A stretch of 48,984 nucleotides of DNA from a virus. Where the stretch lies: the IMG/VR virus record IMGVR_UViG_3300046467_000959, positions 1-48,984 of that record. One strand, given 5' to 3'. Below the pieces are notes generated by a model. The model searched no databases. It was not told the DNA's origin and was given only the letters and a program-made list of their open reading frames with translations. A program made the translations under genes and the position numbers. Of the stretch, positions 8,018 to 12,231 are shown in pieces (position 1 is the first letter of the stretch; each line of letters begins with the position of its first letter).

Positions 8018-11000
8018 TGGCACGCTCAGTCAATCTGCCCGACTCGTTCAAGGCCGAGATGACCCGCGTGGGTGGTTCGTTCCCCAGGTTCGTCCTGGGT
8101 ATCGACTACGACGGCACGCTGAAATACTACAGCGACATCTCCATCGGCACGGCGGAGCTGAACGCCACCGGCAACATCAACAGTTGGGGCCAACTCCAAT
8201 TGCAGGCGACGCCTGGAGCGGTGGGCGGTCACCAGAACATCACGCTGTCGTTAGCCGACCCCGACCTGACCCTCATCGACGACTTCACCGACTGGCCGGG
8301 TATCCAGACTCGCCCGTGCTACATCTATATGTACTACGACCCGGCTCCGACCGGAGGCGGGTGGGCGGATCGTATAACGCTGTTTAAGGGCGTCGTCGGT
8401 CCCGGCATGAAGTTCGACGAGAAGTCGGCGACCTGGAACCTGTCGCTTGTCGACATCGGGAAGAAGAACAACCCCACCATCGGGGTGCATTTCAGCCGCC
8501 AGATCTTCTCGGAGATGAACTGCTCGACCTGCGGCGATGACGCCATCATCCCCATCGCCTACGGTGATCCGGTGAAGGGTGTCAGGGGTTGCGTGATCCA
8601 GCGACCGGGGAGTGGCGCGATATGCCAGGCACCGTGTACGGCGTATGCGAACTACACCGAGACGGACCTGCTGGGGGTGTCGTGTTCGTTCAATGGGCCG
8701 GACCTCTGGTTCACGATCTGTTCTGGGACGCGGTGGCAGTTCTCCCTGGGCGAGCAGTGCATTGTCCTGAGTGACCGGAATCGGATTGAGAGGGTGTGTG
8801 GCAAGCTCCATTCGAGCGGACTGTTCGAGATATACGACTTCAACAACTTCAGCCACTTCTCGTGGGACGCCGGGAGCCAGAGGGACGCGCGTGGCTCATG
8901 GGTGGCGACGGGGCGCGGGTCGTACTACGTGTACGGCGGCGAGAAATTCCTGACGCTACCGAAGACGGCATTCGCCGACTGGACGAACGGGGGAGCTGGC
9001 TTCGCGGACGCGATTGGGGTGTGGGTCAATTGTGACGGCTGGAGATACTTTCCGGCTGCGATGTGGGCGTCGGTCTCGGGGAGTCACGTCGCGTTCATCA
9101 ATATCGGCGAGGGTGCTGGGGGGCTGATGGACCCGTGCCCGAACAACAACTACGAGTTCATCGCAGTACATAACGGGTCAGCCAGCACGCCGTGGAACGG
9201 GTGGTCAGTCGGGACAGGGGTGCGTGCTGGTGACCCGTTTGTATACGCCGTGAACTTCCTTCCCAGCGAGGCCGTTCTCGACATCCATTTTGAGAATCAA
9301 AACTACATCAACCACAGCAACTGGTATGCCAACCTTAACGACACGTCGTACAATGTCGCGTTGAAGCGTGACACGAGCGACCCCGGCATCACCACCGTCA
9401 CGCTCTACGATTGGTGGGACGTCTACAACCCCTTTGATATGTGGAGTGGAGAGAACCAGAAGCTGGATTCCATTCTGGCGAACCTGAGAGGAATCGTCGG
9501 TCACGAGGATCACCGGGCCTATGACGGCGACGCGCTCAAGCATCCGGTCGATGTTATCGAGGACTATCTGACCAACCCGTTCCTGGGCAACACACCCTAC
9601 TCCATGATCGACACAGCGTCCTTCGACGAGGCCAAGGACCGCATCGACGACCTGACTCAGGACATCGCCCCGAGCAACGCTCCGCAGGGATTACGGTTCG
9701 CCTTTGCTCAATACAAGACAGAAGAACTGAACAATCATATCCAGCAATTGGCCGTGCAGGGCACGATGCTGCTGTTCTGGGATATGGGGATGGCCACGCT
9801 GCGGGCCATCTTTCCAAACTGGGACCAGTCAGATACTGTCTTCGAGGTCAACGAGTCAAACCAACAGGATGACACGTTCGGCTTCGACATACTCGACATC
9901 GAGAAGTCACCGACCGAGTTGGTGGGATTGTTCACCGCGTACAGCGACCTGTACAACGCGACCTACAACTTCCGCAGTGACCGGGCTATCGAGCAACGGA
10001 TCATCCGAAGGTCGAGCGAGGCCGAATTGTTCAGGCCACGCAAGTCAGAGTCGGTGAAACTGACAGCGTACCAGGAGGTCTATTCGGTCAGCTATGTCCT
10101 TGAGACGTGGCTGCGTGACCGAGTGAACACCAGTGCCAACGTGACGGTCACGCTTTACCTCGACGCGATGCACCTTCAGCCCGGCGACATCATTGACATC
10201 CAGAGACAGAGTGGTGTGCCGAAGGTCTTGATGCACAAGCTGGCTCGGGTGGAATCAGCCAGCCAGAACATCGGCGATTCTCGCAATGGCCAACCGGGCC
10301 TCATCAAGACCAAGAGCCAGATCCGTCTGACCGACTTTGCGATTGAGGCGGCGCAGTTCATCGAGCAGGATTGCGACCAATCGGTGACGGCTCCCGGCGT
10401 GACGACAGCACCTCCCAGGGTTGGCCCGGCGACAACGACCGTCCTGCCAACCAGCACAACCGTCACGGTTCCGCCAGCGACCACGCTCCCGGCGACTACG
10501 ACAGTCAACCCGGTGCCACCGACTACAGTCACTACCGTGACGACGACGCCTCCGACCTGTACCGCGTCGGGCAACTGCGCGTGGCAGTATGACCCGTCCT
10601 TGCCCGTGGCTGGGAATCCGTGTTGGCCGTTCGTCCTGATTGACAGCGACTGCGGCGCAGGCGAGTTCTGTTATCCGATGTACTCCGGTGGCAGCGCGAA
10701 CGGGTGTCCGTCCGGTAGCCCAGGACTACTCCAGTGCCTGAACACGCCCTGCCAAACTGCGACGACAACAGCCCCGACGACGACGACCAGCACCAGCACA
10801 ACGTTGACGACCCCGGATCCGGGTTGCTTGTTTAGTTGCTTCTGGGTCTGGACGGTCGGCACCAACGGGATCGGTGTCTATGTTCTGCACCCGAACAGCC
10901 TCGCTTGCACGAGCGTCTCGGGATGCGACTGTCTGGCGACTCCGCCCAGTTCGTTCAGCGGGACCGTGTGGATCTCTCAGTGCGGCGCGTCTTGGGCGAC

Positions 11001-12231
11001 CACGACGACGACAACGACGACAACGACGACTCCTCCGACTTCGACTACCGTCACGACTCAGATGGGGTGCCTTGGTCATTGTGTGTGGACGTGGGAGGGT
11101 GCTGAGAACCAGCAGGGCAACGGATGGTACGGATCGTGGACGCTGCAAAGCAATACTTGTCAGGGTGACACAGCGTGCGGGTGCTGCGAGCCGGTCGCTT
11201 CGGGCGGCAATGTCCCGTTTGGCCAGCCGAGTTTCAACCCCGACCAGACGCGCCCCGGCTCGATGATCTACACCCCGTGCCAGACGATGGACTGCGAAGA
11301 CCTCGGCACGACCTCCGCCCCAGCCACCTCGACGACCACGACGGTGCCACCCGTCACGACGCCCGCAGCAACGACGACAGTGACGACCAGCGTCACCACG
11401 GCGACGCCGACGACCACGACCACAGTGTCGCCTGCCGGAACGTGTGACGGGGTATGTGTGTTCATCTGGCAGGAGGGAAGCTGCAACGGGTTCTGCCATT
11501 ACAAATGGGATACGGACCTGAGCCGGTGGGTCAACGTCAGCAACGCCAAGTGCATTTCGTCTGGTGGTGCCTCGTGTGAGTGTAATCCCTACGACCCGGT
11601 CGCCATCGACCCCTATGACCCAACGGCTGGCGGGAAACGCAGTGTAGTAGGCGGTAACCCTGAGAACCCCACGTGGCTGTCGCGTTGCACGTGCGCTGGT
11701 GTGTCAAGCGGCCAGCCGAACAATCAGGGTGATTGCTCTGGCGGCTACGTCTTGTGGAAGTCGTCGTGCGATGGAACCGACCCGTTGTGCCTGTGCCCCA
11801 ACCCGCCGACCAAGAAGGGTGATAGCAAAATCGTCACGGATTGCGTGAGCTGGGATGATGGTGTCACCACTACCACCACGACAACCACTACCACCACGAC
11901 AACTACAACCACTACTACCACTACCACTACAACCACTACCACTACCACTACCACTACTACTACGACGACGACGACGACGACAGTGGCACCGACAACTACA
12001 ACCACCACCACTACCACCACGGAAGCCGTCACGACCACAACAACCACGACCGCCGCGCCCCCTGATCCGTGCGACGCGGCACCGGGCGCACCATGTGCGT
12101 GCGGGTGTGCTGCCTTCTTGTGGACCGGCATCGGCTATACGATGACCGACAACTACTGCACCGGAGCCTGTTCGCCGCCAGCCCCGCCAGGATCCTACTG
12201 GGGTGACACTATCTACCGCTGCTGTGAGTGA
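8017..12231 (+). CDS. tail-tip protein with Cys-rich modules and poly-Thr linkers
   Basis: The protein has 1404 residues, starting at GTG 8017, which overlaps the previous stop. Residues 1 to about 795 form the structural part: an N-terminal Dit/hub-like segment (FVLGIDYDGTLKYYSD, then a DPDLTL strand), a Cys-bearing region near 165-215, a lectin-like middle, and a hub-like domain at about 490-790. After 795 come five Cys-rich modules at roughly 847-915, 936-995, 1015-1095, 1141-1280 and 1349-1404. Most open with C-x-[WF]-x-[WY] (CAWQY, CFWVW, CVWTW, CVFIW). They are separated by Thr/Pro linkers, the last with about 39 consecutive Thr. The modules look like disulphide-stabilised surface domains on stalks, suited to host binding. 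I know no characterised family for them. Genes for an oxygenase and glycosyltransferases follow directly. Confidence 0.75.
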   Translation: MARSVNLPDSFKAEMTRVGGSFPRFVLGIDYDGTLKYYSDISIGTAELNATGNINSWGQLQLQATPGAVGGHQNITLSLADPDLTLIDDFTDWPGIQTRPCYIYMYYDPAPTGGGWADRITLFKGVVGPGMKFDEKSATWNLSLVDIGKKNNPTIGVHFSRQIFSEMNCSTCGDDAIIPIAYGDPVKGVRGCVIQRPGSGAICQAPCTAYANYTETDLLGVSCSFNGPDLWFTICSGTRWQFSLGEQCIVLSDRNRIERVCGKLHSSGLFEIYDFNNFSHFSWDAGSQRDARGSWVATGRGSYYVYGGEKFLTLPKTAFADWTNGGAGFADAIGVWVNCDGWRYFPAAMWASVSGSHVAFINIGEGAGGLMDPCPNNNYEFIAVHNGSASTPWNGWSVGTGVRAGDPFVYAVNFLPSEAVLDIHFENQNYINHSNWYANLNDTSYNVALKRDTSDPGITTVTLYDWWDVYNPFDMWSGENQKLDSILANLRGIVGHEDHRAYDGDALKHPVDVIEDYLTNPFLGNTPYSMIDTASFDEAKDRIDDLTQDIAPSNAPQGLRFAFAQYKTEELNNHIQQLAVQGTMLLFWDMGMATLRAIFPNWDQSDTVFEVNESNQQDDTFGFDILDIEKSPTELVGLFTAYSDLYNATYNFRSDRAIEQRIIRRSSEAELFRPRKSESVKLTAYQEVYSVSYVLETWLRDRVNTSANVTVTLYLDAMHLQPGDIIDIQRQSGVPKVLMHKLARVESASQNIGDSRNGQPGLIKTKSQIRLTDFAIEAAQFIEQDCDQSVTAPGVTTAPPRVGPATTTVLPTSTTVTVPPATTLPATTTVNPVPPTTVTTVTTTPPTCTASGNCAWQYDPSLPVAGNPCWPFVLIDSDCGAGEFCYPMYSGGSANGCPSGSPGLLQCLNTPCQTATTTAPTTTTSTSTTLTTPDPGCLFSCFWVWTVGTNGIGVYVLHPNSLACTSVSGCDCLATPPSSFSGTVWISQCGASWATTTTTTTTTTTPPTSTTVTTQMGCLGHCVWTWEGAENQQGNGWYGSWTLQSNTCQGDTACGCCEPVASGGNVPFGQPSFNPDQTRPGSMIYTPCQTMDCEDLGTTSAPATSTTTTVPPVTTPAATTTVTTSVTTATPTTTTTVSPAGTCDGVCVFIWQEGSCNGFCHYKWDTDLSRWVNVSNAKCISSGGASCECNPYDPVAIDPYDPTAGGKRSVVGGNPENPTWLSRCTCAGVSSGQPNNQGDCSGGYVLWKSSCDGTDPLCLCPNPPTKKGDSKIVTDCVSWDDGVTTTTTTTTTTTTTTTTTTTTTTTTTTTTTTTTTTTTTTTVAPTTTTTTTTTTEAVTTTTTTTAAPPDPCDAAPGAPCACGCAAFLWTGIGYTMTDNYCTGACSPPAPPGSYWGDTIYRCCE
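10402..10557 (+). repeat. first Thr/Pro-rich linker in the tail-tip gene
   Basis: About 50 codons dominated by Thr, Pro and Val (pattern TTTVLPTSTTVTVPP and similar), built from ACN codons of all four kinds. It joins the structural part of the tail protein to the first Cys-rich module. Thr next to Pro is the composition favoured by mucin-type O-glycosylation in other systems. Confidence 0.8.
11866..12060 (+). repeat. poly-threonine coding tract
   Basis: Thirty-nine consecutive Thr codons (11866-11982) are followed by VAP, a run of ten Thr, EAV, a run of seven Thr and AAPP. The first run mixes ACC, ACT, ACA and ACG in no fixed order, so it is not one amplified codon. This points to selection on the protein, although shorter ACC-ACT and ACG runs could still slip during replication. 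Confidence 0.92.

Follow-up and report, generated by a model that had tools for sequence, protein, structure and literature searches.

The window analysed here is a 48,984-base stretch of an uncultured virus record, IMGVR_UViG_3300046467_000959. Directly after its tape measure gene starts an open reading frame (ORF) for a 1404-aa protein, whose C-terminal 614 aa contain 44 Cys and 157 Thr. This region carries small Cys-rich modules separated by Thr/Pro stalks, and a small gene behind it carries a second copy of the last module. The features are:

8017-12231, + strand: ORF of the 1404-aa protein
8017..10380, + strand: N-terminal ~788 aa, very likely a tail-tip hub part (tape measure upstream; fold matches)
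10402..10557, + strand: Thr/Pro stalk 1, seen in the sequence
10558..10752, + strand: module M1, residues 848-912 (CTASGNCAWQY...), 7 of 8 Cys columns kept in six homologs; hhalign M1-M3 82-86%
10825..10983, + strand: module M2, residues 937-989 (CLFSCFWVW...), 6 of 6 Cys invariant; hhalign M2-M3 94%
11068..11295, + strand: module M3, residues 1018-1093 (CLGHCVWTW...), 8 of 8 Cys invariant
11443..11853, + strand: module M4, residues 1143-1279, two starts (CVFIW and CHYKW), 14 of 14 Cys invariant
11861..12066, + strand: long poly-Thr stalk of ACN repeats (tandem repeats at 11865-12020; alignment), the proposed 5' joint of tip exchange
12067..12231, + strand: tip module M5 with its stop codon, sharing 99 identical bases with the small ORF
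12232..12250, + strand: probably a fossil left by a former tip after the hub stop (CTGTTCCTAGGAGTGACCC), 19 of 19 nt identical to the 3' end of the APPGSYAGDNIFRCCS stretch of homolog L001
12251..12502, + strand: small ORF of 83 aa, with a constant N-terminus MSTPSFSASSSASRPASWKPGTRPGGGG common to homologs L001, L004 and L057 and a second copy of M5 as its C-terminus
12505..12539, + strand: out-of-frame fossil of the small ORF's former module, matching the intact module of the L001 small gene at 33 of 35 nt

The probable tail-tip hub and its Cys-rich modules

The N-terminal part was modelled with AlphaFold2 (AF2) on 11 homologs, and the model, of low confidence (mean predicted local distance difference test score, pLDDT, 44.9), was aligned with VIA-align 2. 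Its fold matches are almost exclusively phage tail hubs, with Z scores of 9.4 for JBD30, 8.9 for Chi, 8.7 for T5 and 8.1 for lambda, followed by a gene transfer agent (GTA, 7.7), Mu gp44 (7.4) and the T4 cell-puncturing device (7.3); the similarity is best over residues ~400-788. Phage-tail_3 (PF13550) matches weakly in 6 of the 11 homologs (best E 0.019, under the curated cutoff), the NCBIfam GTA megatron family gives a subthreshold match to the N-terminal part (E 0.036-0.06), and the hub profile found no match among PDB sequences. Because of the fold matches and the position behind the tape measure, the ~788-aa part is very likely a tail-tip hub of the lambda gpJ/T5/gp27 class.

The initial annotation had described five modules with a common C-x-aromatic-x-aromatic start. 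The Cys-rich modules on Thr/Pro spacers are real: the strict pattern C-x-[WF]-x-[WY] is found at four positions, residues 854, 941, 1022 and 1147, while residue shuffles contain 0.10 such starts on average and none of 20,000 reached four. The fifth module (residues 1352-1404) starts C-A-A-F-L-W, that is C-x-x-F-x-W, and the fourth has a second, inner start, CHYKW, at residue 1160, so that five modules with the same start is only approximately right.

The same protein is encoded on about ten contigs of uncultured viruses (IMG/VR contigs L001-L004, L053 and L055-L057; L010 and L057 are one contig), but only six homologs are complete through the tip. In these six, all Cys of M2, M3 and M4 and seven of the eight of M1 are invariant. 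On the simplest reading the Cys would form disulfides, because their number is even in every module of the window protein (8, 6, 8, 14 and 8 in M1-M5) and those of M1-M4 are invariant except for one column.

We compared the modules by hhalign of per-module ortholog profiles, with 60 column shuffles in which Cys were held fixed as controls. All 11 tested pairs scored above 60 of 60 shuffles; among them are M1-M3 and M2-M3, the small-gene module with M2, M3, M4 and the M5 of L053, and the M5 of L053 with those of the window and L057. Probabilities range from 98% (small-gene module with the L053 tip) to 4% (M4-M3). M4 is the weakest link, reaching 22-48% with the small-ORF module, a value that 0 of 60 shuffles attained. 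Since all eleven pairs exceed the Cys-fixed shuffles, the modules are best read as one family beyond shared Cys spacing, with M4 the most distant member. A module hidden Markov model (HMM) matches M2 (10831-10983, E 1.2e-20), M5 (12094-12225, E 4.9e-14) and the small-ORF copy (12365-12496, E 6.9e-13), matches that are not independent because the window's M2 and M5 are in the model. The AF2 model of the whole C-terminus (562 aa, mean pLDDT 52.7), also of low confidence, gives each module the same beta-hairpin, in which the CxWxW strand pairs with a W/Y-x-L strand, and a terminal strand that stops close to a Cys; VIA-align of this model returned a single row, 5hcd_D, at Z 2.5.

Apart from composition-driven Mucin matches to the stalks, Pfam, NCBIfam and PHROGs gave no match over the module region, and the modules had none among PDB sequences. 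INPHARED holds no match to the hub protein, the modules, the small protein or the cargo domain of the L057 small gene (see below), its DNA matches being to poly-Thr repeats only. No isolated phage matched the modules. Weak matches of the L053 tip to two cellular loci (L073, L074) were not confirmed by the module HMMs, a hub profile search of genome contigs found nothing, and pattern scans of viral contigs (poly-Thr with CxWxW; CTWTW[ND]G) gave chance or wrong-frame matches only. A scan with the downstream gene brought one contig, L072, that shares this gene and is devoid of modules; scanning with the entire module region added no further contig. Literature searches turned up no account of modules of this kind. 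The claim that no described domain has this pattern thus withstood the searches of these libraries, and the modules are apparently an undescribed family.

Tip replacement and displaced module ends

The order M1-M5 is common to the homologs as far as each contig extends. Between the window and L001, the ratio of nonsynonymous to synonymous divergence (dN/dS) ranges over 0.11-0.42 for the modules and is 0.16 for the hub. Wherever it could be computed for a module it stays below 1, single ratios being rough as dS is near saturation. The synonymous divergence of M3 is 0.22, versus 0.93 in the hub, and M2 retains 42% amino acid identity, which indicates that the modules have different, mosaic histories. 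The tip occurs in three types, ending IYRCCE in the window, L001 and L004, CCNPIP in L053 and CCVP in L056 and L057, and the type is independent of the hub: the window hub is nearer to that of L053 (68%) than to that of L004 (56%).

On these comparisons the array varies mainly by replacement of the C-terminal tip module and by mosaic recombination, and point hypervariation is not its mode of variation. The diversifying receptor-binding array proposed initially is therefore retained in altered form: it is not hypervariable, with Cys near invariant and dN/dS below 1, its tip module is exchanged, and a receptor role is plausible from the tail-tip-hub context. What appears new is the mode of variation itself, in which an older tip is displaced by a module with its own stop codon.

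The stalks, at 10402-12066 of the window and in all homologs, retain their order and partly exact Thr/Pro motifs (e.g. TTTVNP). As this holds between phages whose hubs are 56% identical, the stalks are more than free-floating low-complexity sequence. The poly-Thr stalk before M5 differs in length between phages.

Remnants of module ends, here called fossils, lie behind the hub gene in four phages (window, L001, L004 and L057) and behind the small gene in two (window and L057). In L001, the stretch behind the current tip encodes APPGSYAGDNIFRCCS and a stop codon in the hub reading frame, an M5-like module end (score 46, shuffle maximum 24) that the module HMM also finds (E 6.4e-5). Between the current tip and this fossil L001 also retains CCTTGAAACCGTTTGC, the end of an L056/L057-type tip, so that two older layers are present. 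L057 has the L001-type APPGSYAGDNIFRCCS stretch with 22 nt deleted, while L004 has YEGDTVTECCNPIP and a stop codon, the end of an L053-type tip (score 43, shuffle maximum 26). In the window, part of the 19-nt stretch may instead be the leader of the next gene. In L057 the 16-nt direct repeat CCTTGAAACCGTTTGC, at 7083 and 8464, flanks the tip fossil, the small gene and the next gene; L056 has one copy of the repeat and lacks that block.

The small gene shows the same pattern. Its N-terminus (MSTPSFSASSSASRPASWKPGTRPGG) is nearly constant and its C-terminal part differs between phages, being a CTWTWN module in L001 and L004, the M5 copy in the window, and a poly-Thr stalk with a ~200-aa unclassified domain in L057. 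The fossil behind the window's small ORF was equalled by 0 of 300 shuffles, and the module HMM detects it at 12498-12542 (E 0.01). In L057, the end of a CTWTWN module lies behind the new stop (46 of 47 nt; module HMM E 1.4e-6), linker remnants flank the cargo, and G+C is 43% in the sequence that immediately follows it. The ~200-aa domain of this gene (L057:7135-7935) has no relative in phage or viral collections outside its own contig; presumably it resembles domains of the beta-rich carbohydrate-binding type.

In the window, bases 12134-12232 and 12405-12503 are identical over 99 positions including the stop codon, whereas in their 5' parts the copies differ at several base types and by a 6-nt gap. 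The shared tract points to a recent transfer or conversion between the hub tip and the small gene.

Proposed mechanism and alternatives

We favour, as the probable explanation, a siphovirus-like distal tail-tip hub with adhesin modules, whose tip is diversified by terminal displacement. It builds on the hub context, the relatedness of the modules, the fossils, the 99-base tract and the lack of correspondence between tip type and hub. The N-terminal part would close the tail tube and the C-terminal part would form an extended adhesin of small, disulfide-stabilised beta modules spaced by Thr/Pro stalks, in which M1-M4 would be permanent and M5, at the tip, would most likely meet the host surface. 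Receptor binding is the likely function of the modules because they form the far end of the tail-tip hub. An incoming module with its own stop codon would join through a low-complexity stalk, poly-Thr (ACN) in the hub and poly-Gly (GGN) in the small ORF, whose repeats would preserve the frame at the 5' joint. At the 3' joint the frame would not matter for a module that brings a stop along, which is why its predecessor's 3' end would stay downstream as a fossil. The small gene would act as second acceptor and exchange partner, and general phage recombination would suffice. Tip replacement probably gives the virus a way to alter the surface it attaches to, and it may be under selection for host range. 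We give about even odds to the fuller proposal of an undescribed, phage-specific family of Cys-rich adhesion modules with a two-gene displacement system (hub tip and small linker gene), in which serial swaps through homopolymeric-codon stalks leave, downstream of the stop, a stratigraphy from which former tips can be read.

Several points weigh against this explanation. Both structural models are of low confidence, the sample is small (about ten homologous contigs, six complete through the tip), and the dN/dS values do not point to positive selection on the modules. The cytoplasm being reducing, disulfides could only arise once assembly is over, and the Cys could alternatively bind metal. The receptor role is inferred from the place of the modules at the far end of the hub, and the 5' joints lie within low-complexity stalk, where exact mapping is impossible.

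It is also conceivable, if unlikely, that the array is structural or protective, as an extended stalk, virion decoration or weak non-specific adhesion, with the tip turning over through neutral recombination in low-complexity DNA. The dN/dS values below 1, the M1-M4 order retained in all complete homologs and the possibility that poly-Thr/Gly repeats by themselves promote recombination would fit such a role. However, replacements cluster at the distal tip and the small-gene C-terminus, and the observed cases always give a complete module or cargo with a proper stop, never a random truncation. The variation might also stem solely from gene conversion between hub tip and small gene within one genome, with no module import from other phages, a reading in line with the 99-base tract. 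We regard conversion alone as improbable, as the L057 cargo is unlike any module of that phage and has a lower-G+C stretch (0.43) behind it, the L004 fossil matches the L053 tip type, and the 5' parts of the window copies differ.

The post-stop stretches might be expressed as alternative C-termini through read-through or frameshift instead of being fossils, an idea that the in-frame stretch of L001 would allow; it is very improbable, since the frame is another in L004 and behind the window's small ORF, the window hub retains 19 nt only, and the L057 stretch has an internal deletion. An equally faint chance is that metagenome assembly created the duplicated tract as an artefact. The record comes from an uncultured virus, and exact repeats of 99 bases can confuse assemblers, but the copies differ in their 5' parts, their 3' flanks are distinct, and independent contigs show fossils too.

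Gene neighbourhood, known systems and significance

Other genes of the window are:

342-992: head-tail connector (PF05135, E 3.8e-9)
4205-8017: tape measure (PF10145, E 4.8e-38; phrog_1533, E 5.4e-70)
12919-13497, + strand: 2-oxoglutarate (2OG)-Fe(II) oxygenase (PF13640, E 2.9e-7), part of the next gene block
13813-14355: methyltransferase
14289-15506, + strand: glycosyltransferase family 2 (PF00535, E 8.2e-10)
43830-46442: portal (PF04860, E 9.1e-41)

The gene order (connector, tape measure, 1404-aa protein, small ORFs, 2OG oxygenase, methyltransferase, glycosyltransferase, AAA protein, helicase, Toprim protein, portal) indicates a tailed phage, with a long tail implied by the tape measure; a sheath protein was not noticed among the window genes. 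The 2OG oxygenase, the methyltransferase and the family 2 glycosyltransferase come after the Thr/Pro-rich hub gene, and an oxygenase homolog adjoins the hub gene directly 3' in L053 and L056. The substrate of these enzymes could be the mucin-like Thr/Pro stalk, or else DNA. The 103-aa protein at 12562-12873 is 92-96% conserved in L001, L004 and L057 while its neighbours diverge strongly, and a distant homolog (55% over part) adjoins an unrelated tail in L072.

The place after the tape measure gene and the hub fold are shared with the tail-tip hubs of lambda (gpJ), T5 and Chi, from which the protein differs in its C-terminal array of Thr-stalked Cys-rich modules. Rhs and CdiA toxins have a conserved N-terminal part, an exchangeable C-terminal tip and displaced, start-less older tips ('orphans') downstream (PMC3967940). 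Displaced older C-termini downstream of the active gene are likewise found here behind the hub and the small gene; here, however, the protein is a phage tail protein, the tips are Cys-rich modules of ~50 aa, and the fossils are so short (about 20-70 nt; 19 nt behind the window hub) that re-use is unlikely. No toxin/immunity pair was noticed among the genes around the hub, where no search aimed at such pairs was made. T-even gp38 adhesins have hypervariable segments flanked by glycine-rich motifs (PMC12892980; for haloviruses, PMC8651126). As is proposed for the hub protein here, they are distal tail adhesins, and low-complexity motifs adjoin their variable segments, but sequence similarity was not detected, and here whole C-terminal modules with stops are displaced, not loops varied inside a fixed fold.

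Diversity-generating retroelements of the Bordetella phage Mtd type vary the C-terminus of a tail protein and have a second, near-identical copy downstream, an arrangement that the window resembles. Differences between the two window copies affect other bases besides adenine, their 3' parts agree over 99 bp, and no RVT_1 was found in the window at E <= 1. Tail-fibre switching by an invertase or shufflon was also considered; the window contains no Resolvase or Phage_integrase. With all three families absent, a retroelement or site-specific switch is unlikely, though the record may be incomplete.

The module family is a possible addition to domain libraries. Tip displacement, known from bacterial polymorphic toxins, would be extended to phage tail tips, and poly-Thr/poly-Gly stalks in tail proteins may act as recombination joints besides spacing. 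If the fossil tips are true, the recent tip history of a phage lineage, perhaps including host shifts, would be readable from single genomes.

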